Virus record (IMG/VR): IMGVR_UViG_3300025110_000007
Coordinates: 26,221-90,220 of that record
Length of the DNA stretch: 64,000 nucleotides
Reading direction: 5' to 3' (one strand)
Source: a virus
Every line of letters starts with the position of its first letter. Positions within the stretch are counted from its first letter, which is position 1. The notes beneath the pieces were generated by a model. That model did no database searches. It was not told the origin of the DNA and saw only the letters and a program-made list of their open reading frames with translations. This document shows, in pieces, positions 3 to 63,406 of this stretch. Both the position numbers and the translations under genes were made by a program.

Positions 3-416
3 GACGACGCATTGGGCGTGGTCTGCCTTGCTTTCAACAGCGAGCGCATCGTCAGAGGAGGAGGCTCGTCTTACATGAACGCCGCCCTCAACCTGCGCTC
101 CCGTGCCGCTGAAATCGGCGGTCGGGCACAGATGGCTATCGAAGCCTTTGCCAACGCCTTGGAGAGCATCCCTGCTACCATTGCGCAGAACGCAGGTCAC
201 GACCCGCTGGACACCATCCTTGAGTTGAGGAACGAACATCTGCAAGGCAACTTTGATTACGGCCCCGATATTTACAACGGCGGTACAATCTCAATGGAAG
301 GGGCGAATGTATGGGAACCGTACGAACTTGTGAAGCAGGCTATTCAGTCAGCAAGCGAGGTCAGCATTAGCATCCTACGCATCGATGACATCATTGGACG
401 GAAGTCTGAGGATTGA
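3..416 (+). CDS. Group II chaperonin (thermosome) subunit, C-terminal part, cut by window edge
   Basis: This is the last ~137 codons of a thermosome/TCP-1-family chaperonin; the frame is open to the left edge, so the start lies outside the window. Visible family hallmarks, in order, are a DDAL segment, the GGG loop, GGRAQMAIEAFANALE, the IPATIAQNAG-DPLD segment of the equatorial domain, and the closing KQAIQSASE...ILRIDDIIG, which matches archaeal thermosome C-termini almost position by position. Group II chaperonins are ATP-driven double-ring folding machines of archaea and the eukaryotic cytosol, which points to an archaeal host. The Gly-Met-rich tail of some cellular thermosomes is absent; the protein ends RKSED. 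It is the only long gene on the plus strand and converges on the next gene, overlapping it by 26 nt. Family assignment is very secure; that it is virus-borne rather than host DNA beside a provirus is inference. Confidence 0.93.
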   Translation, partial: DDALGVVCLAFNSERIVRGGGSSYMNAALNLRSRAAEIGGRAQMAIEAFANALESIPATIAQNAGHDPLDTILELRNEHLQGNFDYGPDIYNGGTISMEGANVWEPYELVKQAIQSASEVSISILRIDDIIGRKSED

Positions 417-1371
417 CATCTCCTGCCGCTTGTTGCTCTTGGAGCATTTGTTCGTAGCGTATTTGGTCTTCCGATGGTCCGGCCATATGTAATTCTGAAA
501 TGTCGCTTCTGAGTTCAGGGTCTGGGTGGAAAAATTCAGCCCCTTGGTACATGGAGTCGCCCATGTCGTCAAGTCTTTGTTCGGGAGTCGTGAAACCAGT
601 TGGACTACTGCTGTCAGGTGTCAGACTGTAAGCGCCGAATTCGTGAGCCATTGAATGCAAGATAGGATAAGCACTTTGTGCTTGTTCGACATCCAAATCT
701 GTCAATAATTCAGGTATGATTGAGCCATGAGGGTCGACATTTACACCTGCTCTTACCAACACATCGGTTGCGGTCTTTGGTCTATTCCATCGCATCCTTG
801 GTCCACTGAACTTCCCTTGAGGGGGATATTGTTGGGTCAATCGTGCAATGTTCTCTTTCTGTTCTCGCTTCAATGCTTCGATGTTGCTTTGCTGTTTCGC
901 CCATTGTTCAACTTCATCCTCGATAAGAGAGTGTACATTTTCATGAGCACCGATGTTGGCTATTTTCTCAGCACCCTTGTCAAAGTCTTCTTCAAAAATT
1001 TTGCCTAATTCTGGGTACAAATGCGTACCAACATAAGAGCCATCCTCCCGCAATCGTGGCACTGAGCCTCCTCGGTAGTATCTTCCGTCTACACCATCTT
1101 CGGGCGCAGGGAAATTAGGCCTGTCCTTTGGCCCGGCCCGAAAAGTCAATTTCGTATTGAACGGTTTCTTTTCGTCTTCGGTCGCTGGACGGTCGCTCAA
1201 TTCTGGGAAATTAGCGACTCTTCCTCTGACATGCATTAAAGGTCTTTCATACATCGGACCAGCATATCCTGTCATGTCTTCGCCTGCTCTTGCGAAATGA
1301 CCGCCGTGTTTATATCCCAAATGAAAATCCGACTTGAGGATTGACCAAGCGACATCAAGTGGCCTGACCAT
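391..1371 (-). CDS. Tagged protein with an HExxH motif, possible virion metalloprotease
   Basis: A 326-residue protein of unknown family. Residues 3-13 (RPLDVAWSILK) are one copy of the short helical peptide found at the start of many proteins in this window, so this is probably a member of the same cargo set. A HENVH sequence at residues 143-147 fits the HExxH zinc-metalloprotease signature and sits in a predicted helix (GAHENVHSLIEDEVEQW); a later MAHEFGAY near residue 252 could supply a further ligand, but I cannot identify the family, so protease activity is a suggestion only. The middle is charged and likely coiled coil; the tail is Gln-rich. It is the last leftward gene, 15 nt after the HMG-CoA-lyase-like gene, and overlaps the convergent chaperonin gene by 26 nt. 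No clear ribosome site precedes the chosen ATG, but that start puts the tag at the N-terminus, as in its sibling at 62786-63406. Confidence 0.85.
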   Translation of the reverse strand: MVRPLDVAWSILKSDFHLGYKHGGHFARAGEDMTGYAGPMYERPLMHVRGRVANFPELSDRPATEDEKKPFNTKLTFRAGPKDRPNFPAPEDGVDGRYYRGGSVPRLREDGSYVGTHLYPELGKIFEEDFDKGAEKIANIGAHENVHSLIEDEVEQWAKQQSNIEALKREQKENIARLTQQYPPQGKFSGPRMRWNRPKTATDVLVRAGVNVDPHGSIIPELLTDLDVEQAQSAYPILHSMAHEFGAYSLTPDSSSPTGFTTPEQRLDDMGDSMYQGAEFFHPDPELRSDISELHMAGPSEDQIRYEQMLQEQQAAGDVNPQTSVQ

Positions 1372-1386
1372 GTACAGGCGTAGCCC

Positions 1387-2226
1387 TCAATGTCTAATCA
1401 AATTATCCTCTTGACCTTTGAGAATGTCCTTCACGACATCCAGAGCAGGGCGTAAGTCGGCTTCCTTAATGCCGCAGTTGAATCCCCATACATTGAGATG
1501 GCGCACCAAGGCTTCGGTCGATAGGTTAGCCCCACTGCCCTTGGCAAAGGGACAGCCGCCAAGACCACCGATGCTTGAGTCGAACTGCTTGATACCACTC
1601 ATCAGGCCGCTTCTGACAAGACTCAGGGCACTTGCTTCGTCACCCTTGTGGTGCAAGTGAAGAGCAGGGGTCAAACCCTCATCTTGGGCCATTTCAGCCC
1701 ACAGCGCCACTTCTTGACGAGTGCCACAGCCTACTGTGTCAGAAAATACAACAGTTGTCCCGAACATCTTAGCGTCCCGTAAGCACAGCCGCATCATTGA
1801 TGAAGAAACTTCACCACTGTGTGGCGAGCCAAATGCCATAGAAAGGTACACTCGTACTTTCTCCTTGGGTACCTTGTCCATGAATGTCTTGTACATCAGA
1901 ACAATCTCTGAGCGAGTCTTACCCATGTTTTGGATGTTGAATGTTTCACATGGACTGAACACGATGTTGATTTTATCGACGCCTGATTGCTGTGCACGAA
2001 GGAAGCCTCGCTTGTTCATGACAAGTCCAGCGCCTTTGTTGTACACGGCCTCTGCGTCAGCCATCTGTGGCAGAACCTTTGGGTGAGCAAATGAAACTTC
2101 TTCGATGTCGGTGATGCCAGAGGCGTACAGTTCCTTTATCAGAAGCCTTTTGGTTTTTGTACTGACCACAGTGCCCAAAGCCTGCAACCCATCTCTTGGT
2201 CCGACTTCATAGACACTAATGTTCAT
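1387..2226 (-). CDS. HMG-CoA lyase-family enzyme (DRE-TIM metallolyase)
   Basis: A 279-residue TIM-barrel enzyme of the HMG-CoA lyase / DRE-TIM metallolyase family, which cleaves 3-hydroxy-3-methylglutaryl-CoA to acetyl-CoA and acetoacetate in leucine breakdown. Visible signatures are VGPRDGLQ near the N-terminus (metal-binding Asp and active-site Arg), EEVSFAHPKVLPQMADAE, SDTVGCGT, an HLH pair in the position of the two metal-ligand histidines, and GLGGCPFAKGSGANLSTE with the catalytic loop Cys and metal-ligand Asn. The Asp that usually follows the HxH pair is His here. Length is slightly under the usual ~300. The ATG at 2226 overlaps the stop of the upstream 51-codon membrane gene (ATGA), so the two are translationally coupled; a longer reading frame starting at 2256 is less likely. 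Presence in a virus is unusual and suggests a host-derived metabolic gene. Exact substrate is uncertain, because related bacterial lyases act on other acyl-CoAs or aldol substrates. Confidence 0.9.
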   Translation of the reverse strand: MNISVYEVGPRDGLQALGTVVSTKTKRLLIKELYASGITDIEEVSFAHPKVLPQMADAEAVYNKGAGLVMNKRGFLRAQQSGVDKINIVFSPCETFNIQNMGKTRSEIVLMYKTFMDKVPKEKVRVYLSMAFGSPHSGEVSSSMMRLCLRDAKMFGTTVVFSDTVGCGTRQEVALWAEMAQDEGLTPALHLHHKGDEASALSLVRSGLMSGIKQFDSSIGGLGGCPFAKGSGANLSTEALVRHLNVWGFNCGIKEADLRPALDVVKDILKGQEDNLIRH

Positions 2227-5690: not shown

Positions 5691-5921
5691 TCACAGTCCA
5701 TCCATGAGAACAACATCACCATGAGGTGAAATTTTTACATTGCCCATCTTGTCAATGATTTTCTTACACTCAGGCTTTGAGCGTTTGCAGGCTTTACAAC
5801 AATCCTCCAAAGAAGCCGCTCCACCTTCCTTTTTCAAACAAGCAATGATTTTTGCTTTCGCCTCTTCTAAATCTCCGTCATCCTCTTTTAGCAAATTCCA
5901 TGCTTCGTCCATTGGGTTCAA
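5691..5921 (-). CDS. Tagged 76-aa protein, possible winged-helix domain
   Basis: A small protein whose first residues, MNPMDEAWNLLKED, are the recurrent helical tag of this window. The rest (AKIIACLKKEGGAASLEDCCKACKRSKPEC...) has the helix-turn-helix-then-wing look of a small winged-helix domain and contains five Cys, so DNA binding is possible but unproven. I chose TTG at 5921: it overlaps the upstream stop as TTGA, has GAGGTG six bases before it, and yields the same first four residues as the next gene upstream. A GTG at 5930 is the alternative. Confidence 0.85.
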   Translation of the reverse strand: MNPMDEAWNLLKEDDGDLEEAKAKIIACLKKEGGAASLEDCCKACKRSKPECKKIIDKMGNVKISPHGDVVLMDGL

Positions 5922-6235
5922 CAGTTCCACCTCTTTAATGACGCTCCCTTGGGCGTCAACTTGCCCTTCTTACTGGTTGGTCCTTTGACACCAGTCATAC
6001 GAGCACAGAATGATTTTCTTCGCTTGGCGGACTTACTACCCGGCTTCAATTTGCTGGGTTTTTTGGTCACAGGAGGCTTGAGATTAGCACCTGTTTTACG
6101 CTTAGCGGCGGCACGACCTTTAGCGTTCAGTCCGCCCTTTTTGTTGTGCTTGTTAGGATTGTACCCGTGAAACGGTTTGCTTTTCTTTTTCTTAGCGGCT
6201 TTTAATACAGCCCACGCTTCGTCCATAGGGTTCAT
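5918..6235 (-). CDS. Tagged, highly basic small virion protein (DUF6321-like C-terminus)
   Basis: A 105-residue protein in three parts: the tag MNPMDEAWAVLK, a central stretch extremely rich in Lys with few acidic residues (KAAKKKKSKPF, KGRAAAKRKTG), and a C-terminus RRKSFCARMTGVKG...LKRWNC that I recognise from many phage small proteins (DUF6321-type, function unknown). Charge and size suggest a DNA-associated protein packed inside the head. The ATG has GGAGGGGTGA before it and overlaps the upstream stop as ATGA. The family name is from memory and should be checked with a profile search. Confidence 0.88.
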   Translation of the reverse strand: MNPMDEAWAVLKAAKKKKSKPFHGYNPNKHNKKGGLNAKGRAAAKRKTGANLKPPVTKKPSKLKPGSKSAKRRKSFCARMTGVKGPTSKKGKLTPKGASLKRWNC

Positions 6236-6441
6236 TCTTCACCCCTCCATGCATCACATGTGCACTTACTGTTGCACTCAAAATCGAATAACTTGCACTT
6301 GCCCATGCCTTCTCCTTTAGCGACCCAGTGTCGGCAGTTGCCACATCGTTCGTTTTGGTTATCTGCTGGACAACGATAATTTGGAGCGTCCTCCTTTGCT
6401 TTAAGTAGCGTCCAAGCCATGTTCAAAGCGTCGGCATCCAT
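6232..6441 (-). CDS. Tagged Cys-rich small protein (HiPIP-like or zinc)
   Basis: A 69-residue protein beginning with a tag variant (ALNMAWTLLKAKED), then a Cys-rich domain: CPADNQNERCGNCRHW...GKCKLFDF...C. The CGNCRH-x-GxC arrangement is common in small phage proteins and resembles high-potential iron-sulfur proteins, though zinc binding is equally possible. I chose ATG at 6441 because GGAGTGA lies five bases before it; a GTG at 6450 overlapping the previous stop is the alternative. It is directly downstream of the giant gene. Confidence 0.82.
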   Translation of the reverse strand: MDADALNMAWTLLKAKEDAPNYRCPADNQNERCGNCRHWVAKGEGMGKCKLFDFECNSKCTCDAWRGEE

Positions 6442-6446
6442 GTTGC

Positions 6447-9400
6447 TCACTCCGTGCTGTGGTCACCGCTATTAAAAGATGTATCGCCTTTACTGCCCTT
6501 TGGGTGTAATGTTTGACTGTGACGGGGCTCAACAGAGTAGTCTTCCTTTCTTGCGGCATCGCTTCTGAAATGCTCCAGTGTGTTCTCACTCATTGTGATA
6601 CGGGCTACTGGTTGCGTGATGTCAGTCTTGTCATAACCAGACACATCGACTCCGAGAATCTTAGGTCCTTGGCTCACTGCGGCACTGTTAGCAGGGTTGA
6701 CACTGTACACAGGTGCGTACGGTGGACTGCTTGGTGTACCTGTACGAGCAGAGGCCGCATCGCTGGTATAGATACCATACTTCCCACCTGCTGTGGCGGC
6801 GTAAAATGTACCGCCTGCTTGAGGTGCTCCTGACTTTACTGCCATGTTAGAACGGAACAACTGTACATGTGAGTTATCTAAAACAAAGGCTGGTCTAACC
6901 AAAAACTCAATTTCAGAGTCAGCGTGGTTTATGTTCTCAGTCACCGAAGTGTGATTACTATCTTGGTATGGATTGGAGGAAGAAGTTGCTCCGGCCTCGC
7001 CCCAGCCAGTCACATCGAGTGCACCTGCTCTGCGCTTCCAATTCATAACATAGGTACCACCAAGAGCCCAGAATGAGTGTGCATCAGACACCTTGATGAT
7101 GCCTTTTACAGGTTGCCCTGTCCAGTCCAGTGCAGTCATATCGAGGTGACCAAGTGTACGATTGCCGACATTCATGGCTCCTCTGAGTGTCGTTCGCTGA
7201 CCAACATCTCTGTTGCTGTGTAGGCTGTGCGCTTCTGTCGACATAACCACATACTCACGGCTCACACCGTCGTTGAGTTCTCCGAGTGTGTCAACATCCA
7301 ATCCAATCCGCACACCGTCACCGCCGACAGGCTCTGCAAGCATGGTGTCCGTGGTGATTGATTCAGTCGTTTCATTGACCATTGCAGTCGGCTTGAGAAG
7401 CCCATCATCGTCAGCGAGGTCGAGGCGTGCACTGATACCACGGTCTGTTTCACCGGCTTGCAATACATCGTTTCTCGGGCGAACTAAGCCCTTACCAACG
7501 GTAGGCTCAGCAGTCGGTTGAGACAGCACCAGCCCTGTCGGCTCAACGGTTTCAGAAATATCCATGAGGAGGCTTTCGTTGAAATGTGTAGGCCACCGTA
7601 CACCACGCCCATCCCCTCGGTCACCTACTCGCATAGCGTTCGTTGGGTTGAACCAATCCACGATAGCCATAGCCGCTACATCGTTATTGGCTGTGTTGGA
7701 ATTGCCACTCTGTCGGTCAGTACTGGTGGCAAAGAGGCCATTCGCTTCTGGTCGATTGCCACTGCCGCCGTCTTCGTATGCATCTTCTGGGTCCCACGCA
7801 GGAGAAATACCGAAGCCACGCACTGGGAAGCGACGGACATCTTCTCCACGAGTGTTGCCCCACCAGTCAACCATGTAGTAGCGGTGTGCTTGAGCAATCT
7901 CTGCAATTTCTAAGCCCGCCCTGTCACCTGCGTACATCCTTCGTACACTGGACGAGTTGCGGATTGTACGAACAGGACAGCCAAAAGCACGAGTCATTCT
8001 GCGTCCGTCGCTGTATCTGACTTGGCGGCCCAATTGGTCTTGATTGAGCAATGCACTAATTTGAGTAAGTCGTTCCAAAACACCCGTGTAAGTTGCAGGA
8101 TAATCAGTGCCGCCTACCCAACCGTCATCTTTGTTATCTTGCTGGATGAATGGTCCATGGTAATAACCAAGCAAAGCATTGGCGTTAGCCACTTCCAAGT
8201 AGCCTCGGACATAAGGCGACCAGCGTGGGCGATTGTACGGTTGACGCAAAGCAAAGCGATAGCCAAAGCAAGTATTTCGGGCATTATCAGATGCTGTCGT
8301 CATCTGTGCGTATGTTCGCTCTTCAAGACCAGTGTTGTCATGGAAACTCACACAGTCAACTCCGAATAACTTCCCACCCCATCCAATGAGTGTTTCAAGG
8401 AAACCATCTAAACGACTGGAGCCTGCTCCTCCTCTGGAACCACCCGGCCAATAGCCTGCGAAATTGTATTTGTCCGAACCAATAGTGCCTCCTTGATGCG
8501 AAAGATTACCGTCACCATCCATGTCAGCACCACTTTTAGTGGTACCAGTTCCACCTGTACCTGCCGCACCGGGCGGTATAATCCACCTCATTCCAAATGT
8601 GAACGGACCTTTAGAGGCCGCATAGAAGAAATCATTGTAGTGAATTGTTTCAAAGTGTTCAGGGACATTGTTGAGTCCTTTCTTGAGAACAGGTGTATCT
8701 GTTGCTCCGTTCTTGTCGTAAAAGCCTCTGCTGTTGTCATCGGAGTAGTAAGTGAAAGGACGGCCCAAGTTCGGATGCCACATACACAAATACGCATCAG
8801 CAAGATGTAGGCTGTTTGTATCACGAGTACCATTCATGGTTTGTGGCATAACCCGAGTTGTCATGCTGACAAGCGAATTAGTGAAAATTTCATCTGCCTT
8901 CCGGTTGTCATAAGGCCCGCTTAAACGAATAATTGTGTCATTGGTTAAGTTGTCAAAGAATAGAGGAGTGACTTCCGTGACACCTTGGAACTGTGTAGGC
9001 GTCCCAAGAGTAGCGTGGGCCAATGTTCCTGTTCGGTTTGTGTAGGTAGCCGTCTGCCTTTCCCCGTTAGCATCTGTGTATTCCAAAACCTCTCCGTAGT
9101 ATGCTTTGACTGGGAACAGTTCAGCATTATCCACATTGACTGTACTGCCTCCAGCAGATGAGGCTGTGACCTTAGCATTGGGGTTCAAAGAGCGAACACG
9201 ATAGTGCTCTGCGTAAATGTCAGGGTAGCATGTAGGATAACCAGCAAGTGTAATCTGAGCACCTACTGCGCCAAAGGTAGCCCTGTTCATCTGATAGTAG
9301 TGGTCAGGTGTATGCCACTCCAAATGTCTGAAATGTGTAGCGGCTGATGCAGTTGCTCCGTCCTTGTGCAACTGTGCCCACCACGGCACTGTGAGCGTAA

Positions 9401-12400
9401 ATCCGGGTGTAGTCTGAATGAACATGTTGGGGTGGTAGGGCAAGGTGCGTCTGCTAAATGCAGGTGATGTAGTCTCTTCTACACCAAGAGCGTTGTAGTT
9501 GGCCAATGGAGGCAGGTTTGTGAATTGGCTGGAGGCATCAGGCTCAAGGTCGAGCATAATTTCATTGAGCATAATTTCACAACCTCTGACATCCGCCATG
9601 GTTGCCTCTGCCAAAATCAAGGTATAGGCACCATTTGTGTTGCTCCCGTCATCGTGAGCGATGGCGACCACGGTGTTCACCTGTTGCCCTGTCAATTCTG
9701 TGACCTTAGTACCAGATTCGGATGGGGCCTTCACTGCGTCTGAATGGTTGCTGTGATAACCAGAGAATTGTTGCTTGAACACATTTGGCTGAATAATAAT
9801 CTGATATGCTCCGACTTCCATAGGGTCAGGGAAATGGTCGTTGAGAGTGTAGGAACCAGCCGCCTCTAACACAATGGAGTGGCCTCCCTGTGAATTAGTC
9901 GTGCCTGCACTACCTTTCGATGCGGCTATCCCGTAGCCGTCGAATTTGACTTTGGTTTCAGTCAAGAGAGTGAATGCCCCGCCGTGTATGTCAGAAGGTC
10001 CGTATGGTGCAGACGCACCTGAGAACCAAACCAGAGGGTCACGAGGATTAAGGCGTTCAAGTAAGTCGTTGCCGCTGTATTCAGCGGACATGTCCTCCTC
10101 AAAGGTTGATGATGTAGTAATTCGACTTGCTTGACCAAGATTGTAAAGTCGTTGATACGCAGGGTGAGCATAGTGCCCCGGCATCAAAGCCATTGTTGGT
10201 GTGACATAATGATGGCCCATGCGTGGAATAGGCATAGGCGTCATCTTGGGTGCACTCAGAGCAGTGTGTGGAGTCCCGTTGACGGCAGTCCAGTCAATGG
10301 TCTTCATGTCTGGGCTGGCCCCGCTGTATTCACTGTGGTCCCGCAACCGTCGAGAAGCAAAGAAACGAGTGCTACCAGCAGGCATGAAGTATGATGGTAC
10401 AACCTTGAGTCCGGTTTTACCAGTCACGAAAGAAACAAAGTCTGGACTGTACACAACGCCTGTGAATTTATTCGTCCCTGTGTTGGTGTAAGAGGCTAAA
10501 ACACCCTTGTTGGTCGTAGGGTCGTACACTCGTAAGAACCAGCGACCGCCGCTTGATTCTCCGTTATCTTTCCATGTGTCATCTTCCGGTGTACTACCAA
10601 CTGTGATTTCAGTACCTGAGTAGCCACTGTAAGTCAGTTCATCAACATCATAGCGGTGTGTCATTGTGACACCGACACGAGTCACATGGAATTGTAAAGA
10701 GCGGTCATGGGGTTCGTATGCTGTGTTCAAAGGAGCGTTGTCAGTGTGTGACTCCCAGCCCTTTGAAGAACTGGCAGGGAACGCCAAACGGTCATCAGAA
10801 AGGTCCGTACCGTCTTGCGACAGGTGTTCCCAACCATTGTTCTCCCAAGTAGGCCAAAGCCTCGGCCCATCGTAGGTTTCTTTGAATGTATCAGTTATAG
10901 ATGGCTGTGCTTGAGCAGGGTGCATCAAACCACCAGAGCCCATGGTTTCGTTTTGGTAAGCCTGTATTCGGTCAAAGCCCGGTCGAACAATGATGTTGCC
11001 GGGAATTTCATCAGCGTTTGGTAGTCGAATCTTCATGTTGGGTGATATACCAGACCCAGCGATAGCGGGGGACAAGCCCTCTATGTCACGGTCACTTACA
11101 TGTCTGAAATCCATGATGACTGTGCCCAAAGGACTGCCACCCTCAAGACGGTGTTCTTGGCCTGTGTCATCAACAACTTGCATGCTTTCAAATTGCAAGT
11201 GCTCGTTGGGTATAATCAGAGCGTTTTCCTTTTCGTTGATGTGCTTCTGTGCCAATTGAGGATGGCTCAGTTCCTGTGCTTGGATGATTGGGAACATAGC
11301 ACTGTTCGTCGACTCAAAAGAGAATCGACAATTGCCCAGAATCTTTTCCCCAACTGTCTTGTAAGACCCGCCGTCTTTGCGAACAGTCCAAGGTATCATA
11401 CCAAGGCCACGAGCATTTGATGCAGGCATGGTTAAGTTGCCTCCGTCCATTCGTTTCCATACTATGTGCTCTTCTGTAAAGTTGCGAGCCGCACTTTTTG
11501 TATCGTAGTACTTGTACAATCCTGCTGATGTTTCGTAGTATTCTGTACGAGAAGTGATTCCTGTGCACTCCTGTACCAAAGTATCTGCCAGAGTATGCAG
11601 TTGGTTGGTAGACATAATAGATTTGTCCCAAAACAAATCTCCTGTTGGGCTTTGACAGGGGTCTGCCCTGCTAACATGGCTGGTCGAGGTGACCCTTGCA
11701 TTTGGATAAGCAACTGTATCGACATTCGGATAGGCTGTGAAATCTGTGCTTGCTCTAATGTTTGCTTCGACATGAGGCCCTGCTGTGGCAGGAGCATTGT
11801 ACCGGCTCTTGTTGTGAACCTTGTTTATGCTCCAAGCCTGTGTACCTGCTCTCAAGATGTTGCCGTCTGCTTTGACAGAAAGCCAGTCACCAGATGCAAT
11901 GATGCCATCTCTGTCTGTTTTGGCTATGAGAGGTAGTTCACTTTCATGGCTGACTGCTACCAAGTGACGGCTGGATAAGCCATGTACACAAAAATCATTG
12001 GCTAACGATGAAGGCGTGTCTGTTATACCGATAGGTGGAGATGATGCCAAGCAGGTTTCAGCGGAGCCATAAGGAGCAAAGCCCAAGAACGGATGCCAAG
12101 CCCCGAGTCCAGCAGGGAATTTGGTTCCACCAATTGAGGTACCGTTGTAGGAATTCAGATACGAATATGCCTCTCCTGCCCACCCAACTGCCCCTATGGG
12201 TTTGGTACGGTCAACTGCGTCCATAAAGCCGTTGAAGTGCACCTGTGTCATGTGTTCACGAGATTGAGTCGTGTTGTTGTATTGATGTGTGCCCGCTTTA
12301 GTCCAAACATAAACGACAGCAGGTCCGTTGTCACCGTTCACTTGAGCGGCCGCTATTGCCGCTTTAGTTGTAGGGTCAACCAGATTCGTACTATTTGTGA

Positions 12401-21947: not shown

Positions 21948-21949
21948 AC

Positions 21950-36962: not shown

Positions 36963-36996
36963 GACCATTACCCCACGATAGACCTGTCATACTATA

Positions 36997-46922: not shown

Positions 46923-46973
46923 AATTTTCACTCCTGCGTTAGTACTTTATCAGCATTTGGGTCCCTAATTCGA

Positions 46974-51524: not shown

Positions 51525-52957
51525 CAAGCGGTCCTCCCGCTACCTCGACTAACGAAAATATGACCGGACGCACCAGAGGACCTCATTTCATCGGCCTCTT
51601 TGTTGTCTGTGCCACCTTGTGGCTGAGTGGTTTCTCCGTCACGGTGACCCGCTTCGCCTTCCTTGGAACTGCCTTTGCCTGACGGTGGGGCTTTGTTTGT
51701 GCTGTCCTTGTTCTTGATAGCCCGCTTGAGGTCACGCAGAAGGTTGCGCAACTGGCTGATGTGCAGATAGTTCTCTGCGGACTTGAGGAGCATCCCCATG
51801 TCTTTGAGTTCAGACTTGGACAGTTCTCCTGCAAGTCGTGGCATTTTTCCTGCTCCCATAGGACCGGGAGCGACGGGTGTGCGCTGTTCGATGTTGTGAG
51901 TCTGATAGGGCATTGAGATGTTGCCTACATTTCTGCGAGCGGCACGCTGACCGAGGTTTTGTCGGTATTTACCGGGGAACAACTTGGATGGCTGTTTGGT
52001 TTTGTCACCCAAGTGAGACATTTCGACAGCCAATTCAGATTCAGTCAGGCCACCATGTTCAGTTCTTGGGCTCAAAGTGCGGGACTGTCGCTTGCTTCGC
52101 ATAGATGTAGCAAGGTCAGGTCGACGGCCGCCGGGTGGTCCTTGGAACACCGGGTTGTCGATGTCTTGTTGATTTCTTTTGAGCAACTGGTGAGCGATGT
52201 CGAGCGGCTCACTGCGAGTAAATCCTGTTGCAGGATTGAAAGGAATGCCTTGATTGGTGTAGGCAAAATCATCATCAAACGCCAAACCAACATCTCCTGC
52301 ACCGACAGTGCCTATGCCCTTACCAGTCACCACATTTGATTGGCGTTCATTTTGTCCGGGGTGAATCCTTTCGTCGATGTGCTTTCCTGTTCCCCCGCAA
52401 TGGTAGCAACTAACGGTTTGCGGAACTGTGATTGGTTCACCTGTCACTGGATGATATGTGTGTTGCATGCGTTCAATCATACCTTGCCCATTGCAAACAT
52501 CACAAATTTGGTCCTGCTTCAACAAACGGAACGCTAAGTCCATCGGCTCACCTGTGGCCAATGTATTCTGACCAAACGGTGACATGGCTTGAGCGCCAAC
52601 ACTGAAACCAACATCGGGGCTACCAGTTCCCACGGAACCGGTGATGTCACTAAGTTCCGCTTGATTCGCCATAGGCGTTTCTTCCATACCCTCCTCTTCC
52701 ATTTCTTCTGGTACAGGCATGTCTGGAGGCATTTCAGGTTCAGGTTCTTCAACGCTGACTTTGAGATGGGGATTGTCGCTGACTTTTGTTTCAGCATCCT
52801 TTTCTTGCATGCGCTTGTCTTTGAGTTCATCCACCTTCTCAGGAGAACCCTTGCCGTGCTTGTACGAATCTTCGTCATCAGCAGTGTACAGGTGGTCAGA
52901 CTCGGAGCGAGGAGAGTACATACGGGTGTCAGTTCCCGTTCCCATTCCTGCTGGCAT
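51524..52957 (-). CDS. Twice-tagged protein with DnaJ-type zinc finger
   Basis: A 477-residue, largely disordered protein with two recurrent tags: GEPMDLAFRLLKQ near residue 140 and SEPLDIAHQLLKRNQ near residue 250. The first is followed at once by a DnaJ-like zinc finger: CDVCNGQG, about 30 residues, then CYHCGGTG. The first 120 residues are acidic and Pro/Glu-rich; the C-terminus contains helix ELKDMGMLLKSAENYLHISQ and a Gly-rich tail ending SRGSGRTA. AGGAGGAT lies just before the ATG. The likely role is a multi-part cargo or assembly protein; no enzymatic motif was seen. Confidence 0.87.
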   Translation of the reverse strand: MPAGMGTGTDTRMYSPRSESDHLYTADDEDSYKHGKGSPEKVDELKDKRMQEKDAETKVSDNPHLKVSVEEPEPEMPPDMPVPEEMEEEGMEETPMANQAELSDITGSVGTGSPDVGFSVGAQAMSPFGQNTLATGEPMDLAFRLLKQDQICDVCNGQGMIERMQHTYHPVTGEPITVPQTVSCYHCGGTGKHIDERIHPGQNERQSNVVTGKGIGTVGAGDVGLAFDDDFAYTNQGIPFNPATGFTRSEPLDIAHQLLKRNQQDIDNPVFQGPPGGRRPDLATSMRSKRQSRTLSPRTEHGGLTESELAVEMSHLGDKTKQPSKLFPGKYRQNLGQRAARRNVGNISMPYQTHNIEQRTPVAPGPMGAGKMPRLAGELSKSELKDMGMLLKSAENYLHISQLRNLLRDLKRAIKNKDSTNKAPPSGKGSSKEGEAGHRDGETTQPQGGTDNKEADEMRSSGASGHIFVSRGSGRTA

Positions 52958-57480: not shown

Positions 57481-58716
57481 TCAATCTTTTTTCTTGTCAC
57501 GCTTGCCCTCAGTCGAGGGACCGGGGCCTGCTTTTCCAGACCCAATGACGATGACCATACCGTGAGCAGGCTTCTTTTTCTTATCTGATGACTTGTCTTC
57601 GGCTTTCTTTTCGCAACCACACATCTTTTGCATTTTACCGCAGGAAGGACACGATGCTTTGCGTTCCATGTCGTTAATTGCAGATTTGAGAAGGAATTCA
57701 CCGAGGTCCATGTACTCACCAGTTAGTTTCTGCGAGGAGGCTCGACTATTTGGGTCTTGCCATTGAACATCAGCGTACGGGTCTGGCTGTTGTTGGTTCC
57801 AATTGACATCGTTCCAAATGTCCTGTCGAGCACCTTGGCCCACACCGACATTCTGTACTCCGCCGATGCCTCCACCGGCTTGGTCCAATTGATAGCCGCC
57901 TGTGCCTGACGCACCTGCGCCTGCACCTGCGTAGCCGGGTGACATGCCTGTCATTTGTGGGGGGTCTGTGGGATTGTTTTGCAAAAGTGACCCGCCCGCC
58001 GCTAAAAGGGCAAGTGCTGGGTCCAATCCAGCATTTTGAAGAGCATAGACTCTTCCGATGTTTCTGGCATTATTAGCAACCGCCTGACTGCCTCGCAGTC
58101 CTGCTTGTGTACCTGCTCGCCCCAATGCTCCCGTTCTGCCTGCTTGCCGTGCGGCTTGTCTGCCCATGCTCAAAGCATAAGGGGATTGTTGGGCGGCCAA
58201 TCTAAATTGTGCTTGTCGTGTTGCGTTGCTACCTGCTCCTGTAAGACTCCCAAGAGTCGGGCTTGCTACGCCTGTTCGATTAAACATTCTTCGGGCGTTT
58301 GCGGCCGCTATTTGTCCTTCCGGTATAGTACCAATGGCTTTACCTGCGTTTCTTTCGGCGGCATAGCGTGCGGCATTTTGAGCGGCGGCTTGCTTTGCCG
58401 CTTGCTTTGCCGCTTTGCGACCAAAGATTTTAGCGCCGAGTTTGCCGCCTAATTTGGCAGTCGCACCCACTCCGCCACCTGTACCTTGAGCAAAACCGGT
58501 GCCGAATTCAAGAGCATTACTGGCGAAAGAATCATCGCCTTCTGTGCCTACTACTCCAAGAACGGGGTCAGTGACTCGATTGTCTTTGACATTCTTGTAG
58601 CCTTGATATGCACCATAAGCACCCATAAGAGCAGGAATAGCAAGTGCAGGTAAAATTTTCTCAACCCGATGTCCTTCTTGAAGAACATCCCAAGCGGCAT
58701 CGGTAGGAGAAGTCAT
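57481..58716 (-). CDS. Twice-tagged Ala/Gly-rich basic protein with Cys cluster
   Basis: A 411-residue protein: N-terminal tag variant SPTDAAWDVLQEGH; a small-residue and basic Ala/Gly/Arg-rich middle (KAAKQAAKQAAAQNAARYAA) resembling membrane-active or DNA-coating regions; a Gly-rich linker; then GEYMDLGEFLLKSAIND, a second tag variant near residue 355; a Cys cluster CPSCGKMQKMCGC; and a Lys-rich tail. GGAGTG precedes ATG 58716, which overlaps the upstream stop as ATGA. Likely an internal or injected virion protein; no family was recognised. Confidence 0.85.
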   Translation of the reverse strand: MTSPTDAAWDVLQEGHRVEKILPALAIPALMGAYGAYQGYKNVKDNRVTDPVLGVVGTEGDDSFASNALEFGTGFAQGTGGGVGATAKLGGKLGAKIFGRKAAKQAAKQAAAQNAARYAAERNAGKAIGTIPEGQIAAANARRMFNRTGVASPTLGSLTGAGSNATRQAQFRLAAQQSPYALSMGRQAARQAGRTGALGRAGTQAGLRGSQAVANNARNIGRVYALQNAGLDPALALLAAGGSLLQNNPTDPPQMTGMSPGYAGAGAGASGTGGYQLDQAGGGIGGVQNVGVGQGARQDIWNDVNWNQQQPDPYADVQWQDPNSRASSQKLTGEYMDLGEFLLKSAINDMERKASCPSCGKMQKMCGCEKKAEDKSSDKKKKPAHGMVIVIGSGKAGPGPSTEGKRDKKKD

Positions 58717-58970
58717 TCGGAACACTCCTTTCCATGACTCATCTGGACATAAGCGTTGCTCACCATACGATACTGCTCCTGTGCTTCGACAAGGTCGGTG
58801 ATAAGATGGGGGTATTCGTCACACGCTTCTTCCAAAATATCAACAACGGAAGCGAGGTGCCTACGCAGTTCCAAAAATAATTTGGCCATGAGGATTCGGG
58901 GTATGCCCTCGTAGTCCTCCTTGTCCGCAGAAAATCCCCACTCGTCAAAGGGGTACTTGGTGGCCGTCAT
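58713..58970 (-). CDS. Small helical protein, 85 aa
   Basis: An 85-residue protein, mainly helical (RILMAKLFLELRRHLASVVD, EEACDEYPHLITDLVEAQEQ), acidic, with no motif. It is one of the few genes in this stretch without the tag. ATGA overlaps join it to genes on both sides, so it is certainly in the operon. Function unknown. Confidence 0.8.
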   Translation of the reverse strand: MTATKYPFDEWGFSADKEDYEGIPRILMAKLFLELRRHLASVVDILEEACDEYPHLITDLVEAQEQYRMVSNAYVQMSHGKECSE

Positions 58971-60229
58971 TTCTTGCCCTCCACAGCCCGATACATCGGT
59001 TTGACTGATTTGCCACGAGGAGCGTGTTGCTTGCCTTTCTTGTGAGCGGCTCGCTTCGTTTTGTTCTCCGTTGCTTTTTGCGAAGGCGACATGCTGTCAG
59101 CCACAGACTTGGGAGCATACCTGCCACGCTTGTGACGGGGCTTCTTCATCTCCTTCTTGTCGTCACCGACGAACTCCCACTTTTCTTTGGTCCACTCCGT
59201 GAGTGATTCTTGGCCTTTTGACTTAGCCTTGAGCAACCGCATAGCGATGTCCATTGGTTCGCCTGTTAATTTTCGTCGAGTATCTTCGTCAATATCAAAT
59301 TGCTGAGGTTGGCGAGGTTCATTGGTGATGTTCTGTTCACACGCAGTACAGTACATATTTTCATCTGCACCTTTAGGAAATTGTCTTATGCTTTGTGGGT
59401 CAACTATCGGCTGTAATCTTTCTCCGTGAAGTTGACAGTGTGTGTCAGGGCTATCATATACATTTTCAGTTCGCTCATTAAACACCTCCATGGCAATTTC
59501 TTGAGGTGTTTGTACCTTGTTGCCCTCTTCTTCTTGACCAGCCGCTATTTCATCCCAAGTGGATTGAGGAATACCAAACGCACCAAGCGGGTCGGGGTCA
59601 ACATAATTCTTCCAATTTGGGTCCTGCCAATATGGGTTATCCGGGTCATAAGGTGGGTCATTAGAACCTTTGAGCAACCGCATAGCGATGTCCATTGGTT
59701 CGCCTCTCTTGAAATCACTACCGCCAAGACCTGTGATATTGAGTCCTCTATTGGTTGGCCGACCATCCCACTCACGAGTATAGACAGTAGGTAATCTGTG
59801 CCTCAATGCAGGATGTTCACTTTCTATGATTTCCTGCGGTGCAATGGGATGCGCAGTTTGTTTCATACGACCATCCCTTGAGAAGCCCGTTCGGTAAGGG
59901 TCCAATATCTCCCCATCACCATGTACCACCGCTTTGTTTCCATACGGCATTGCGTTTTCAACATCATATTCTTGACGGTGTTGCTCATCACGGCTGTCAA
60001 AAACAGTCGCCCCTACCGCACCTTGATTGTCTTGCCCCGGATGATGCGTTGGTTCAATTGTTCCATCACCTTGACATGTTATGCAAGTAATGTAGTCGTA
60101 GTCTGTACCACCTTCTCCATCAAAGGGACCTTCATAAAAGCCGCCTTGGCCTCCGCATTGAGGACATTTGTAATCAAGAGTGTCTTCTTGTTTCAGCAAC
60201 CGCATAGCAATGTCCACTGGTTCAGTCAC
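58967..60229 (-). CDS. Multi-tagged protein with DnaJ-type zinc finger and basic phage C-terminus
   Basis: A 420-residue protein built on repeated tags: TEPVDIAMRLLKQ at the N-terminus, GEPMDIAMRLLKGS near 175, a weak TPQEIAMEVFNE near 240, and GEPMDIAMRLLKAKS near 325. The first tag is followed by CPQCGGQG...CITCQGDG, a DnaJ-like zinc finger; a second Cys pair CTACEQN lies near 295. The last ~85 residues are basic (KPRHKRGRYAPKS, KTKRAAHKKGKQHAPRGKSV) with a WTKEKWEFVG segment that I have seen in phage small proteins. GTG 60229 is chosen for GGTGG five bases upstream; GTG 60238 adds three residues. Two of the tag-coding stretches share 36 identical bases. Confidence 0.88.
   Translation of the reverse strand: MTEPVDIAMRLLKQEDTLDYKCPQCGGQGGFYEGPFDGEGGTDYDYITCITCQGDGTIEPTHHPGQDNQGAVGATVFDSRDEQHRQEYDVENAMPYGNKAVVHGDGEILDPYRTGFSRDGRMKQTAHPIAPQEIIESEHPALRHRLPTVYTREWDGRPTNRGLNITGLGGSDFKRGEPMDIAMRLLKGSNDPPYDPDNPYWQDPNWKNYVDPDPLGAFGIPQSTWDEIAAGQEEEGNKVQTPQEIAMEVFNERTENVYDSPDTHCQLHGERLQPIVDPQSIRQFPKGADENMYCTACEQNITNEPRQPQQFDIDEDTRRKLTGEPMDIAMRLLKAKSKGQESLTEWTKEKWEFVGDDKKEMKKPRHKRGRYAPKSVADSMSPSQKATENKTKRAAHKKGKQHAPRGKSVKPMYRAVEGKK
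59229..59264. repeat. Direct repeat encoding the tag (copy 1)
   Basis: A 36-base run identical to 59670-59705, encoding the same tag peptide in the minus frame. A third, diverged copy lies near 60186-60221. Identity at the nucleotide level suggests recent duplication or gene conversion. Confidence 0.85.
59670..59705. repeat. Direct repeat encoding the tag (copy 2)
   Basis: Exact 36-base partner of 59229-59264, lying about 440 bp away in the same gene. The flanks differ at once on both sides, so the repeated unit is essentially the tag itself. Confidence 0.85.
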
Positions 60230-60665
60230 GGTAGCCACCGCCAGCCTTCTTGTACTTTACAGCCACAAGTTGTGCTTTGCGAGCAGACCACTGACCGGGC
60301 TTGCCGCCCTTAGAGCCTGCTTTGACACGGGCGACGATTTTCTTTCGCATACCGGGCTTGGTGTAGTTGCCAGCGGCGTTGACTTTCTTGAGAACAGGCA
60401 CCATTTTGAGGGTGCCTCGCTCTTTGAAGTGGCGGGCTCTGTTCGTATGAGGGTCTTCTGCTACGAGTGTGTGGTCTTTGGTGTGACTCATGTCTGGCCC
60501 ACCTTTGCCATCGATGCCTCGCTGACGGCGCTCACGCTTGAGGTCGGTGTGGTACTTGACTCTGTCAGGGCTGGTTTCGTAATCAGTATCGTACTCAGAT
60601 TTGTGCCGCTTCGCTTCTGGACTCGTGGCGTGCTTGAGAACTTCCCAAAAGTCGTCGTTGACCAT
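60222..60665 (-). CDS. Basic phage small protein (DUF5872-like) with tag-like start
   Basis: A 147-residue protein. The N-terminus, NDDFWEVLKHAT, keeps the aromatic-x-x-L-K core of the recurrent tag. Next comes YDTDYETSPDRVKYHTDLKR with GPDMSHTKDH and RARHFKERG, a pattern seen in many marine phage proteins. The end, GKPGQWSARKAQLVAVKYKK, matches the DUF5872-type domain that I recall from phages and giant viruses (basic, probably DNA-associated). GAGTGATAAC precedes the ATG. It overlaps the next gene by 8 nt. Confidence 0.88.
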   Translation of the reverse strand: MVNDDFWEVLKHATSPEAKRHKSEYDTDYETSPDRVKYHTDLKRERRQRGIDGKGGPDMSHTKDHTLVAEDPHTNRARHFKERGTLKMVPVLKKVNAAGNYTKPGMRKKIVARVKAGSKGGKPGQWSARKAQLVAVKYKKAGGGYRD

Positions 60666-60669
60666 GTTA

Positions 60670-61038
60670 TCACTCTTGGTTTTCTCTTAGGCTCTCCATG
60701 CTCAAGTCAAGAGGCTCGGTATCTGGAAGTGGAACGCCGGGAAGACGGCCCGAAGGATGGGCAAGATTAGCAATTGGATTGTTCCGTACCATGCTTTCTG
60801 CACTGTCCGCCATGTAATTTGAGATTTTAGGGGCTTGTTGTGCTTGAAGTCGCTTGCGTGCTTCTGCGTTGGCCGCTTCAATCTCCGCTCGTTTTTGTTC
60901 TTCTGCTTGTTGTGCTATCAGATTTCTGATATTGGATTGGTACCTTGCGTTCCTTTCTTCGGACGGCATGTCATTAGTGATGTCATGCATGTCCCTCTTC
61001 AACAAAGCCCATGCGCTGTCAAACGGTTCATCGGCCAT
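60670..61038 (-). CDS. Tagged coiled-coil protein, 122 aa
   Basis: A 122-residue protein with tag DEPFDSAWALLKRDMH at the N-terminus, a Glu/Ala/Arg coiled coil (EEQKRAEIEAANAEARKRLQ), and a second tag-like EPLDLSMESLRENQ at the very C-terminus. So both ends could dock to the same partner. I chose ATG 61038, which puts the tag at the start; the longer frame to 61110 overlaps the small zinc-ribbon gene. No strong ribosome site. Confidence 0.82.
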   Translation of the reverse strand: MADEPFDSAWALLKRDMHDITNDMPSEERNARYQSNIRNLIAQQAEEQKRAEIEAANAEARKRLQAQQAPKISNYMADSAESMVRNNPIANLAHPSGRLPGVPLPDTEPLDLSMESLRENQE

Positions 61039-61060
61039 GGTGCGGCTATGACCGCTCCGC

Positions 61061-61198
61061 TCATGAATCTTTCCACATGCACTCGCATTGAGGACAGTGC
61101 CAAGCAACACTTCTCAAACTGCCGCCCGCTTTGGAGTACAGACGGTGAGTAGGTTGTTGCTTACAAAGGGGACAGGGAGGACTTTTTGTTCGGCCCAT
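61061..61198 (-). CDS. 45-aa zinc-ribbon microprotein
   Basis: A 46-codon frame with CPLCKQQ and HCPQCECMW, a compact four-Cys ribbon flanked by basic residues (MGRTKSPPCPLCKQQPTHRL). AGTGATTCAC leads the ATG, and a clear TATA box lies ~50 nt upstream, so it is likely the first gene of a transcript. Too short for most gene finders. Function unknown. Confidence 0.68.
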   Translation of the reverse strand: MGRTKSPPCPLCKQQPTHRLYSKAGGSLRSVAWHCPQCECMWKDS

Positions 61199-61244
61199 GT
61201 GAATCACTGTAAAAAGGTGGAGGGCAGGGGCTGAAACGGAAGGT

Positions 61245-61254
61245 GATATATACC
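61245..61254 (-). promoter_or_regulatory. TATA box before the 45-aa zinc-ribbon gene
   Basis: GGTATATATC on the minus strand is the best TATA-box match noticed in the window. A start of transcription ~27 nt downstream would give a ~24-nt leader with the GTGAT ribosome site of the gene at 61198. It follows directly after T-tracts that may end the upstream transcript. Confidence 0.55.
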
Positions 61255-61258
61255 TGCA

Positions 61259-61280
61259 CTAAAAAAGCCCAAAAAGCGCA
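61259..61280 (-). terminator. Candidate U-tract terminator
   Basis: Read leftward, two T-runs (five and six T) occur ~70-85 nt after the stop at 61347. Archaeal termination commonly uses such U-tracts. Placed between the end of one operon and a strong TATA box, they fit a transcription boundary. Confidence 0.5.
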
Positions 61281-61346
61281 GAAACACAGAAAAGTACCCC
61301 GGCCCTCCAAACCTACCGACGAAGGTTAGGGGTATAAAGATTCGGG

Positions 61347-62372
61347 TCAGCGGCGACGGTTGCGACGACTGTTGGGCCCTCGGCCCCTACCGCCTCGGCG
61401 GGTGTTGAGTGCTCTGCGCTGTACAGGCTTTGGAACACGAGCGGCTTCCTCGGTCTTTCTATTACCAAGTGCCTGCATTGCGGCGTCCATTGGGCTGGCA
61501 GTGGATGGCTGTGCAGACTGTGCGGCCAATGACCTTGCTCGGTTGGCTTGTGCCTCGAATTGTCGTCGCCCAGCATCAGGGTCAGGCTGAACGCCCTCTG
61601 GGAATTCAGGGAAATCAGCAAGACTTTGGCCTAACTGTTGCATTTGTGGCATTGTTTCTGGCCTTGAGTCATCAGCGAATTCAGTATCGTCAACAGGTTC
61701 TTGTGTTTGAATCCTGTTTTTGAAAGAGAATGGGTCATAACTATGAGAACGGCCATAATTGCGAGGATTTTGGACGATAGGGCCATATTCTTCTCCGACA
61801 TTACCATAGTAGTCCCTGCGCCTGTTTCTTGCAGGTCCTCCCATTCGCATGTTAAAATCATAATTTTGTGCAAACCTTTTCTGTGCCTCCGGGTTGTCTG
61901 CTTGTAGGCCTTGCAGTGTCTTTGGGAAAAAGCCAGCGTCCATTGATGAAGTCACTTCGGGAGGCTGAACGGTCATTGGGTCAGGCATGCTGTCATCAAA
62001 AACCGGCAACTCAGGGTCATCATCATGGCGTACTTCGTCAATTAACATTTCATTTTTCACAGAGTCAGGAAGGTCCTTGTATGCCGCTGGGTCGTAGCCC
62101 TCTTCGTGTGGCTGTCCGAATTCGTTAAGCCTGCCCCGCTGTGCCGCCATTATTCGCTCAGCCATCGGCTGACCAGCGGTACCGCTCGTCTGACCATCAC
62201 CAAACCTTTGGAAAGGCTCAATCCCTGCGAGTGCCGCAGGAATACCGGAGCGACCACGGGCCGCTTGGATTCTCTCAGGTGTTGCAGGAAGCCCACCAGT
62301 GCGGGCCGCTTGGCGCAGGTCTTCCAGCGTCACTTCTTTGAGAAGCATCCAAGCGTTGTCAATAGGGTTCAA
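61347..62372 (-). CDS. Tagged protein with Arg-rich C-terminus, 341 aa
   Basis: A 341-residue, mostly disordered protein. It starts MNPIDNAWMLLKEV (tag), has a second, weaker tag SPMDAAMQALGNRK near residue 300, and ends in an Arg/Gly tail (TRRGGRGRGPNSRRNRRR), which suggests nucleic-acid or capsid-interior binding. I chose TTG 62372: it makes the tag N-terminal like its siblings and has GTGAT upstream; the frame to 62462 would overlap the preceding gene. It is the last gene before the 61.3 kb transcription boundary. Confidence 0.84.
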   Translation of the reverse strand: MNPIDNAWMLLKEVTLEDLRQAARTGGLPATPERIQAARGRSGIPAALAGIEPFQRFGDGQTSGTAGQPMAERIMAAQRGRLNEFGQPHEEGYDPAAYKDLPDSVKNEMLIDEVRHDDDPELPVFDDSMPDPMTVQPPEVTSSMDAGFFPKTLQGLQADNPEAQKRFAQNYDFNMRMGGPARNRRRDYYGNVGEEYGPIVQNPRNYGRSHSYDPFSFKNRIQTQEPVDDTEFADDSRPETMPQMQQLGQSLADFPEFPEGVQPDPDAGRRQFEAQANRARSLAAQSAQPSTASPMDAAMQALGNRKTEEAARVPKPVQRRALNTRRGGRGRGPNSRRNRRR

Positions 62373-62376
62373 AAAA

Positions 62377-62745
62377 TCACATTCCGGGTTGTCGTTGCTG
62401 AGCAAGGTCTTGTCCAAGCATTCGCATGGCCTCTCTTTGAGCATCTTTCTTCTGGGCAACATTCATGCCCAAAGCAGAAGCATTGTCTGCTTCCAGTTCC
62501 TCTTCCTCGGGACTATCGAATTCAGAGTCAACTGGCTTTCGCTTAGCCCGTTCGGTTTCGTCAAAGACCATCCGACGCTCTGCTTGTCGCTGACCAGTAC
62601 GGCTTATGCCCCGAGCATCCCGTCGAGTCATATCTCCGTACGGCTGATTCGTAGGGTAGCCTGCCAAACCTGTGAACTGTGCCCTGTCACGGTCCATTCT
62701 ATCTTGACCTTTGAGTATTTGCCAAGCGATTCCTTCGGGGGTCAT
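62377..62745 (-). CDS. Tagged charged protein, 122 aa
   Basis: A 122-residue protein starting MTPEGIAWQILKGQ (tag variant), followed by a highly charged, probably disordered or coiled region (RDARGISRTGQRQAERRM, SEFDSPEEEELEAD). I chose ATG 62745 so that the tag is N-terminal; GTG 62766 is the alternative. No other motif was seen. Confidence 0.8.
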   Translation of the reverse strand: MTPEGIAWQILKGQDRMDRDRAQFTGLAGYPTNQPYGDMTRRDARGISRTGQRQAERRMVFDETERAKRKPVDSEFDSPEEEELEADNASALGMNVAQKKDAQREAMRMLGQDLAQQRQPGM

Positions 62746-62785
62746 GGGCTTCCGAGGGAGGCTCACAACATAAGCGTGTCGGCTG

Positions 62786-63406
62786 TCAAAGAAGGTCTTC
62801 GTATGAGAACGGCTTACTCTCTATGACTTCTCCTTCTGGCTCAAAATCCGGGTTCCGAGCATCAAGCAAAGGTCCATGGAATTGCGGGTCGACATAACGC
62901 CTACCAGAAGGAATACCAGCGTCAGTCACCGGCAAACTTTGCATATACCGAGTGTCGTATGGAAGCCCACGCTTAGGATTTTTTCCGTAATTCAAATGCT
63001 CTCTTTTGTACCTTTCAACATTAAATTGCTTATCCTGATTGGTGTAGCCTTGAATGTTTCTGCGGGCTGTTCCGTCAGGGTCGAAAGTCAAGTAGCGTGC
63101 CGGGTAAATGGCACTTTGACCTGTGTGATGGTCAGTGCTTCCTTCCAAACCTTTTTCGTGAGCATCAAACATCAATTTCCCATCAGCGGTTCGATAACTG
63201 TTCTCTCTTGAAAAGCGAACAGGTACACCAACTGTACCACGCTCATGGTCAGCAATAGTCTGCATCATTGACTGTGCTTCGGCCCAAGACATCCCATCAG
63301 CAACGGGAGGGAACTGCGCATCAACAGCCTCTCGGAAGTCCTGCCTCCGCCTGCCAGCACCCCTCGCCTTAAGCAAGGACCATGCTACATCAAGCGGGCT
63401 GACCAT
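62786..63406 (-). CDS. Tagged protein, 206 aa, first gene of the leftward series
   Basis: A 206-residue protein with N-terminal tag VSPLDVAWSLLKAR, nearly identical to the start of the protein at 391-1371 (VRPLDVAWSILKS), though the bodies differ. The body contains MSWAEAQSMMQTIADHERG and PYDTRYMQSLPVTDAGIPSG; no family was recognised. I chose ATG 63406 because a TATA-like element at 63441-63450 would start transcription between it and the upstream ATG at 63430. Confidence 0.8.
   Translation of the reverse strand: MVSPLDVAWSLLKARGAGRRRQDFREAVDAQFPPVADGMSWAEAQSMMQTIADHERGTVGVPVRFSRENSYRTADGKLMFDAHEKGLEGSTDHHTGQSAIYPARYLTFDPDGTARRNIQGYTNQDKQFNVERYKREHLNYGKNPKRGLPYDTRYMQSLPVTDAGIPSGRRYVDPQFHGPLLDARNPDFEPEGEVIESKPFSYEDLL

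Follow-up and report, generated by a model that had tools for sequence, protein, structure and literature searches.

A Candidate Capsid-Targeting Tag with a Putative Built-In Cleavage Site on Late Proteins of a Magrovirus-Like Marine Virus and Its Relatives

Introduction

A short recurrent peptide, carried by many late proteins of unrelated body in a marine virus genome, is proposed to act as a capsid-targeting sequence that contains its own cleavage site and that the prohead protease would remove by cutting after the final lysine of the peptide. The DNA analysed (hereafter, the window) is a stretch of 64,000 nucleotides, bases 26221–90220 of the 90,220-base IMG/VR virus record IMGVR_UViG_3300025110_000007, and the peptide is referred to below as the tag. 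The probability of this reading is put at about 0.68; loading of the cargo into the head seems rather likely when taken singly, cleavage after the tag lysine equally so, and, because each supports the other, the two are rated nearly as high jointly.

The Tag and Its Distribution

In its N-terminal form, the tag reads M-x-P-[FMIL]-[DE]-x-A-W-x-[LIV]-L-K (99 copies within 20 residues of the start, with W in 92 of them), and in its internal form G-E-P-M-D-[IL]-A-[WFM]-[RQS]-L-L-K (69 copies), the variation of which can also be written G-E-P-M-D-x-A-[WFM]-x-L-L-K. The residue following the tag lysine is most commonly A, then Q, G, and E, and the first 30 residues of the proteins hold 113 of 194 copies. 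All copy counts are lower bounds, as the gene caller misses short overlapping genes. When the window genome and its two nearest relatives were excluded from training, the profile still detected 13 copies of at least 13 bits in nine called window proteins, and no match in reversed proteins, in early-strand proteins, or in 20 shuffles. Two uncalled small overlapping genes, 5691 (32.4 bits) and 60670 (31.0 bits), bring the total to 15 copies in 11 proteins, all on the minus strand, in agreement with the initial annotation of the window, which had listed the tag on at least eleven proteins. That annotation had also proposed that a profile built from the copies be searched in related viruses, and in 20 related genomes such a search recovered 181 copies of at least 13 bits, versus one in shuffled and none in reversed proteins. 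Moreover, a degenerate DNA pattern gave 102 matches across 26 relatives and its reversed form none, and a stricter pattern marked at least 119 stretches across IMG/VR, with one for the reversed pattern. Between homologues whose tags and bodies differ to a similar degree in synonymous change, amino-acid identity is 65% in the tag and 47% in the bodies, and the tag is therefore under selection as protein. When concatenated tag copies were compared with annotated phages by tblastn, only matches of E ≥4 were obtained, although such very short queries are insensitive and absence is not proven. The family phrog_9713, of 23 amino acids, matches 10 tag residues (E 5e-4 to 8e-4), and its source genomes could not be traced.

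The 146 tagged proteins of the 20 genomes fall into 67 families of unrelated body, 44 of which are singletons. Tagged genes are confined to the late strand (143 of 914 genes, versus 1 of 575 on the early strand; Fisher p = 3e-31), and the lone early-strand copy, MSPTEIINRLLK in a 484-aa protein of genome G014, was rejected as a false positive, its 12 homologues being devoid of the tag. Where a genome extends far enough, the largest tag cluster is located directly upstream of the terminase–portal–protease–capsid block, and a second cluster lies beyond the giant tail-fibre-like gene. When records of at least 30 kb were collected by the tag alone, 31 of 43 proved to encode the same capsid protein; 11 gave no capsid or portal match, and all six of those that were inspected proved related through tail or replication genes. 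A search of 84,980 species genomes of bacteria and archaea found a single relative, a contig in the Poseidoniales single-cell genome AG-422-I20, with a capsid protein 62% identical, and in the virus of this contig the two tagged genes are placed between the portal and scaffold-like genes. The host contigs of the same cell contained no tag among 90,000 residues scanned, and across the host order (194 genomes) the DNA pattern occurred about 0.2 times per Mb (about 66 matches, versus about 20 for the reversed pattern, with a few recurring as one same host peptide), versus a viral rate of about 58 per Mb. The refuting condition of the initial annotation, an equal frequency of the tag among host proteins or outside the late genes, was tested and did not refute its reading.

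The Tag End and Candidate Protease Sites

The major capsid protein is of the SU10/HK97 type (34376–35560, minus strand; Pfam PF17236, E 2e-9; phrog_24667, E 4e-57). It carries a candidate maturation site, GSELLK/AD (35459–35476, minus strand; the slash marks the proposed cut), within GSELLK/ADAPMLST, where L33 and K34 are invariant across 28 aligned sequences, that of the distant AG-422-I20 virus included. The S78 prohead protease is fused to a scaffold-like C-terminal part (35574–36968, minus strand; Pfam PF04586, E 2.9e-10) and presents a variable leader followed by an invariant hhK (h, hydrophobic) directly ahead of the catalytic domain (SISILK/SG, IGILK/GAN, SISIVK/AD), and a second invariant hhK directly behind it (RILK/ED, SILK/ED). 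In the window these candidate self-cleavage sites are SISILK/SG at 36903–36920, where K22 is invariant and the preceding sequence varies, and RILK/ED at 36444–36455, where K175 is invariant, both on the minus strand. A conserved GILLK/AN is also found near the C-terminus of a 1920-aa head-module protein (37402–37416, minus strand), with K1786 invariant in 13 members.

At the three matching places, the AG-422-I20 virus has GTDLLK/AD in the capsid protein and DFILK/QD and YTILK/MD in the protease, and its tags are MSAFNRAWDVIK/M and MSVFDTAWTVMK/D. The haloarchaeal virus HVTV-1 seems, by eye, to keep a lone lysine at the matching capsid and protease places (MSK/AD, PVFK/SK, VVSK/AD). As a rule, HK97-type heads mature by cuts at such domain borders, and h-L-K is thus the best guess for the site of the S78 prohead protease; each tag would end in one. 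The match between the tag end (LLK) and the invariant hhK at these putative domain-border sites of capsid protein and protease is newly recognised here. The counts of hhK[x] against its mirror (29:0 in the capsid protein, 33:0 in the protease) are suggestive and were not relied on, as family members are not independent.

Modules and Cargo

Segments that come after internal tags are often homologous to stand-alone, N-terminally tagged proteins elsewhere, and several of these alignments begin at or near the first post-tag residue in both partners. Thus, segment 1 of G013 protein 0 aligns with G022 protein 84 (40% identity) from residue 1 to 1, segment 3 of the same protein with G008 protein 5 from 9 to 11, and G018 protein 41 with G009 protein 126 from 4 to 4. 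Transferable units of cargo are therefore delimited by the tags.

The cargo includes basic domains of the DUF6321 (5918), phrog_14910, phrog_7595, and phrog_27331 types, zinc ribbons, a family that looks kinase-like by eye, and a weak GNAT match. In the HExxH protein 391–1371, HE..H and another HE farther along are invariant, and one meaningless match was all that a search with the profile of its family returned. When the profile of the tagged YHGT family was compared with the PDB, all 28 of 28 matches were ADP-ribosyltransferases, although weak (best E 0.047), and this family is probably an ADP-ribosyltransferase. In the YHGT family (L128, L177, and relatives), the motif RQTTLGE(F/Y)HPDFPSPYG comes directly after the tag and is constant while the remaining body varies. 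These cargo types, with their basic domains and an ADP-ribosyltransferase-like fold, match known internal head proteins, which favours the capsid-targeting reading.

Tag Copies in the Window

All the copies described here are on the minus strand. At the left end of the window, the HExxH protein 391–1371 begins with PLDVAWSILK (1333–1362; 28.9 bits), and its family carries the tag in six of seven aligned members, the seventh being without its N-terminus. Three neighbouring genes follow with N-terminal copies, PMDEAWNLLK in 5691–5930 (5886–5915; 32.4 bits), PMDEAWAVLK in 5918–6235 (6200–6229; 35.0 bits), the body of which is the basic DUF6321 (Pfam PF19846, E 1.2e-17), and the variant ALNMAWTLLK in the zinc-ribbon-like protein 6232–6450 (6400–6429; 19.5 bits), which is retained as ALEHAWRIIK in two relatives. 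Internal copies occur in 51524–52957, where PMDLAFRLLK (52517–52546; 36.0 bits) comes before a DnaJ-type zinc finger and PLDIAHQLLK lies at 52178–52207 (25.9 bits); 15 of 16 members of this family are tagged.

Towards the right end, 57481–58725 starts with the variant PTDAAWDVLQ (58678–58707; 17.3 bits; 9 of 12 family members tagged). The protein 58967–60238 carries PVDIAMRLLK at its N-terminus (60191–60220; 29.3 bits) and two internal copies of PMDIAMRLLK (59669–59698, 34.3 bits; 59228–59257, 35.9 bits), the latter before a basic C-terminal domain that matches phrog_14910 over residues 338–412. The untagged protein 58713–58970 starts with MTATKYPFDEWGF, which resembles the degenerate tag start MTYPFDEWGFISQILK of the relative G007 and is perhaps a decayed tag. 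PFDSAWALLK lies near the N-terminus of 60670–61110 (60997–61026; 31.0 bits), where an in-frame Met is found four residues ahead of the tag Pro (MADEP). The protein 61347–62462 contains PIDNAWMLLK (62337–62366; 28.4 bits) and a weak second copy, PMDAAMQALG (61464–61493; 17.8 bits), and two further genes bear N-terminal copies, the variant PEGIAWQILK in 62377–62766 (62710–62739; 26.3 bits) and PLDVAWSLLK in 62786–63430 (63368–63397; 31.6 bits). The tags of 62377 and 6232 are weaker variants.

Other copies of the initial annotation did not survive. The core-only copy assigned to 60222–60665 (phrog_17747, E 8e-28), a basic phage-domain protein, is just a remnant, DDFWEVLKHA with FWEVLK as its centre, that scores below 5 bits, and the homologous domain in the relative G022 does come after a real tag. 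The degenerate copies attributed to 30244 and 36997 reach about 6 bits, no better than chance by this score, and were rejected. The two to four copies claimed for several proteins need correction in the upper figure: no window protein has more than three (58967), and among relatives the highest number is five, in an 829-aa protein of G008.

Docking Candidates

Two head-associated proteins of the window, the protease/scaffold protein 35574–36968 and the scaffold-like protein 43127–43504, have in common the C-terminal motif W-x-[ED]-[VI]-H-x-[LM]-A (WDEVHxLA / WxDIHxLA). In the former it appears as MSWDEVHSLA (35577–35627, minus strand; in 15 of 16 relatives, the exception being cut short), and in the latter as MDWGDIHRLA (43130–43213, minus strand; a related motif in 12 of 12 listed relatives). 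This motif is probably a capsid- or core-binding helix and, because of it, both proteins are the first docking candidates, with MSWDEVHSLA of the protease/scaffold as a candidate docking helix for the tag. In addition, 43127–43504 contains a tag-like coiled-coil stretch, METMDSNLQILK (43409–43438, minus strand; 17.9 bits; 8 of 12 family members score), which is possibly a cleavage site or a coiled-coil look-alike.

Proposed Mechanism and Alternatives

The tag could fold as an amphipathic helix, with M/F2, A5, W6, and L8/L9 on one face, and dock its protein to the assembling prohead core, where the scaffold, the protease, or the inner capsid face would offer the docking surface. The S78-family prohead protease, active within the finished prohead, would cut after the Lys of h-L-K, and would probably make the same cut in the capsid protein (SELLK/AD) and at either border of its catalytic domain (ILK/S, ILK/ED). 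The freed cargo, comprising basic DNA-binding proteins, zinc ribbons, and enzymes, would stay with the DNA and enter the archaeal cell at infection, and multi-tag proteins would be strings of tag–cargo units separated by the cut. A T4-like loading of the head had been suggested by the initial annotation; the late-strand restriction, the linkage to capsid protein and protease, the near-absence of the tag in host proteins, the nucleic-acid-binding and effector-like cargo, and the protease-site-like end speak for it, while docking and a location in the virion are still inferred.

Several points weigh against the proposed mechanism. The candidate cleavage sites are deduced from conservation at domain borders, and the portal and TerS contain a conserved hhK within their folded parts as well, so that hhK alone is not diagnostic. 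M occupies the Lys position in 9 of 168 distinct copies (GEP..AWSSLMK in 51524 homologues, with K one residue later), and the AlphaFold2 models of the HExxH protein (pLDDT 33) and of the capsid protein (pLDDT 36) were of too low quality to be relied on. The model of the HExxH protein, which was not used, contains a helix at residues 4–17. In several relatives, homologues of 51524–52957 have an internal tag with one additional residue ahead of the Lys (GEPMDDAWSSLMK).

The h-L-K end in common with the capsid and protease sites and the internal copies between modules would also be expected if the tag were a processing signal only, i.e., a protease linker of late polyproteins whose cargo enters the head by other means. 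However, more than half of the copies fall within residue 30, a position at which a linker and nothing more would just trim off about 12 residues, and the P-[MF]-D-x-A-W half, which the capsid and protease sites lack, shows a degree of conservation close to that of the L-L-K half, which makes this explanation unlikely. Slightly less probable again is docking of the late proteins outside the head, to the tail, the host membrane, the cell-exit machinery, or a host factor; some tagged genes do come just after the giant tail-fibre-like gene, on its downstream side, but the position of the largest cluster upstream of the terminase–portal–protease–capsid block, the two tagged genes of the AG-422-I20 virus next to head genes, and the match of the h-L-K end to the head-protease candidate sites argue against it. 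Effector-like cargo (the ADP-ribosyltransferase fold, HExxH, and kinase-like by eye) might suggest that the tag is chiefly a propeptide that holds toxic cargo inactive until prohead cleavage, but the same tag is found on small basic and zinc-ribbon proteins without evident toxicity, and inhibition of unrelated folds by a 10-residue helix is improbable, so little credit is given to this role. Recent duplication of one functionless leader, for which similar N-termini would be expected from paralogous spread, or chance resemblance, is hardly credible in view of the identity of tags above that of bodies across genomes and in 67 families, and of the zero copies in shuffled or early-strand proteins of the window genome.

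Beyond the capsid-targeting reading itself, the odds appear evenly balanced that a universal cleavable loading code operates in Poseidoniales viruses, with each tag both dock and cut site. Under such a code, which is given the same even odds, any late protein, or several strung in one frame, would become a separate head passenger.

Comparison with Known Systems

The capsid-targeting sequence (CTS) of phage T4 is likewise a short N-terminal peptide on unrelated, partly basic, internal proteins (IPI–IPIII and Alt, an ADP-ribosyltransferase), and such a peptide on several unrelated proteins is what was found here. The T4 protease gp21 cuts at L/I-x-E sites, ending in Glu, whereas in the present viruses the cut is proposed after h-L-K and the protease belongs to the S78 family. 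Moreover, the present tag differs in having one consensus over 67 families, internal repeats, and an archaeal virus as its carrier. By analogy, the tag is treated as working like the T4 CTS, as an analogue and not a homologue, set apart by its consensus and by the protease family. The T4 propeptides, of 10–19 N-terminal residues, target the internal proteins and are then cut off; their front half targets and their end is the prohead-protease site, the site being named LIE-9 (PMC9026906).

According to the available part of PMC9024508, phage P1 delivers internal anti-restriction proteins, and a 30-residue N-terminal signal of DarB is enough to bring a reporter into its head; the Dar N-termini apparently lack a common consensus there, whereas the present tag has a strict one. 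SPN3US and phiKZ likewise have many internal proteins with propeptides cut by a single prohead protease, but these are mostly long, with another motif, and no common short docking peptide is seen in the available part of PMC10052503. In HVTV-1, no tag copy was found in the 41-kb head–tail region examined, and a different repeated domain (DEAPEGVQVQQG) is carried instead. Proteins 115 and 116 of its head region (L322) have their own repeated element (VYVDSPDEAPEGVQVQQG...), perhaps another solution to the same task. In the literature searched, no report of such capsid targeting in an archaeal virus was found.

The Virus, Its Host, and Other Genes

The first 26 kb of the record, outside the window, hold plus-strand replication genes (a SNF2-type helicase, a clamp-loader-like AAA protein, a family B DNA polymerase (PolB), and an ERCC4 nuclease), and the minus-strand late genes of the window encode terminase, portal, S78 prohead protease, the SU10/HK97-type capsid protein, and tail proteins. 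Comparison of gene lists found the S78 protease, HK97-type capsid protein, portal, terminase, PolB, and ERCC4 nuclease of magroviruses all present, and the 90-kb virus is most likely a magrovirus by gene set and size. Genome size, PolB, ERCC4 nuclease, S78 protease, and kinship to haloviruses, features of magroviruses in the available part of PMC10160649, are all common to the present virus, and that part contains no mention of the tag. The nearest named viruses are the haloarchaeal HVTV-1 and HCTV-5 (Druskaviridae), with broadly similar head gene order and a capsid protein about 35% identical, an identity that does not amount to a close genome-wide relationship. The capsid protein matched only 11 phage records at all, and no solved structures resembling it by sequence were found. 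A Poseidoniales host is indicated through the AG-422-I20 relative, indirectly for the window virus itself. The magrovirus-like contig of that cell (L343 / G070:C2), 106 kb long and partly masked, provides direct host evidence for the virus group.

Among the remaining genes, the 1920-aa head-module protein (36997–42759) shows a weakly scoring domain of the ATP-dependent DNA ligase (NTase) type (E 3e-4, under the Pfam cut-off), possibly inactive, as its motif-I lysine seems, by eye, to be replaced (AFPEGER). An HMGL-like (pyruvate carboxyltransferase-type) enzyme, encoded at 1387–2256 among the late genes, is a possible auxiliary metabolic gene, and the single open frame 6447–21953, of 5168 aa, with N-terminal laminin-G/concanavalin-like repeats (by eye), probably encodes a tail fibre or another tail protein. 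Between terminase and portal lies a large protein (45609–46931) whose C-terminal part is of the endonuclease type (phrog_5046, E 6e-10); in HVTV-1, HNH genes flank the terminase on both sides. The portal genes of the relatives G027, G033, G034, G045, and G049 contain one in-frame TGA, attributable to recoding, an intron, or an assembly error.

Significance

With the tag as query, candidate head cargo can be picked out of any magrovirus contig, among it probable ADP-ribosyltransferases and metalloprotease-like and kinase-like proteins. Which proteins enter the host cell along with uncultured viruses of marine archaea becomes a question that sequence searches can address. The hypothesis also predicts exact mature N-termini, which could be checked by metaproteomics. 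If it is true, cargo loading by a short peptide with cleavage would not be special to T4-like phages, the tag might be used to bring foreign proteins into the heads of archaeal viruses, and it would reveal the arsenal injected into the Poseidoniales, one of the ocean's commonest archaea.

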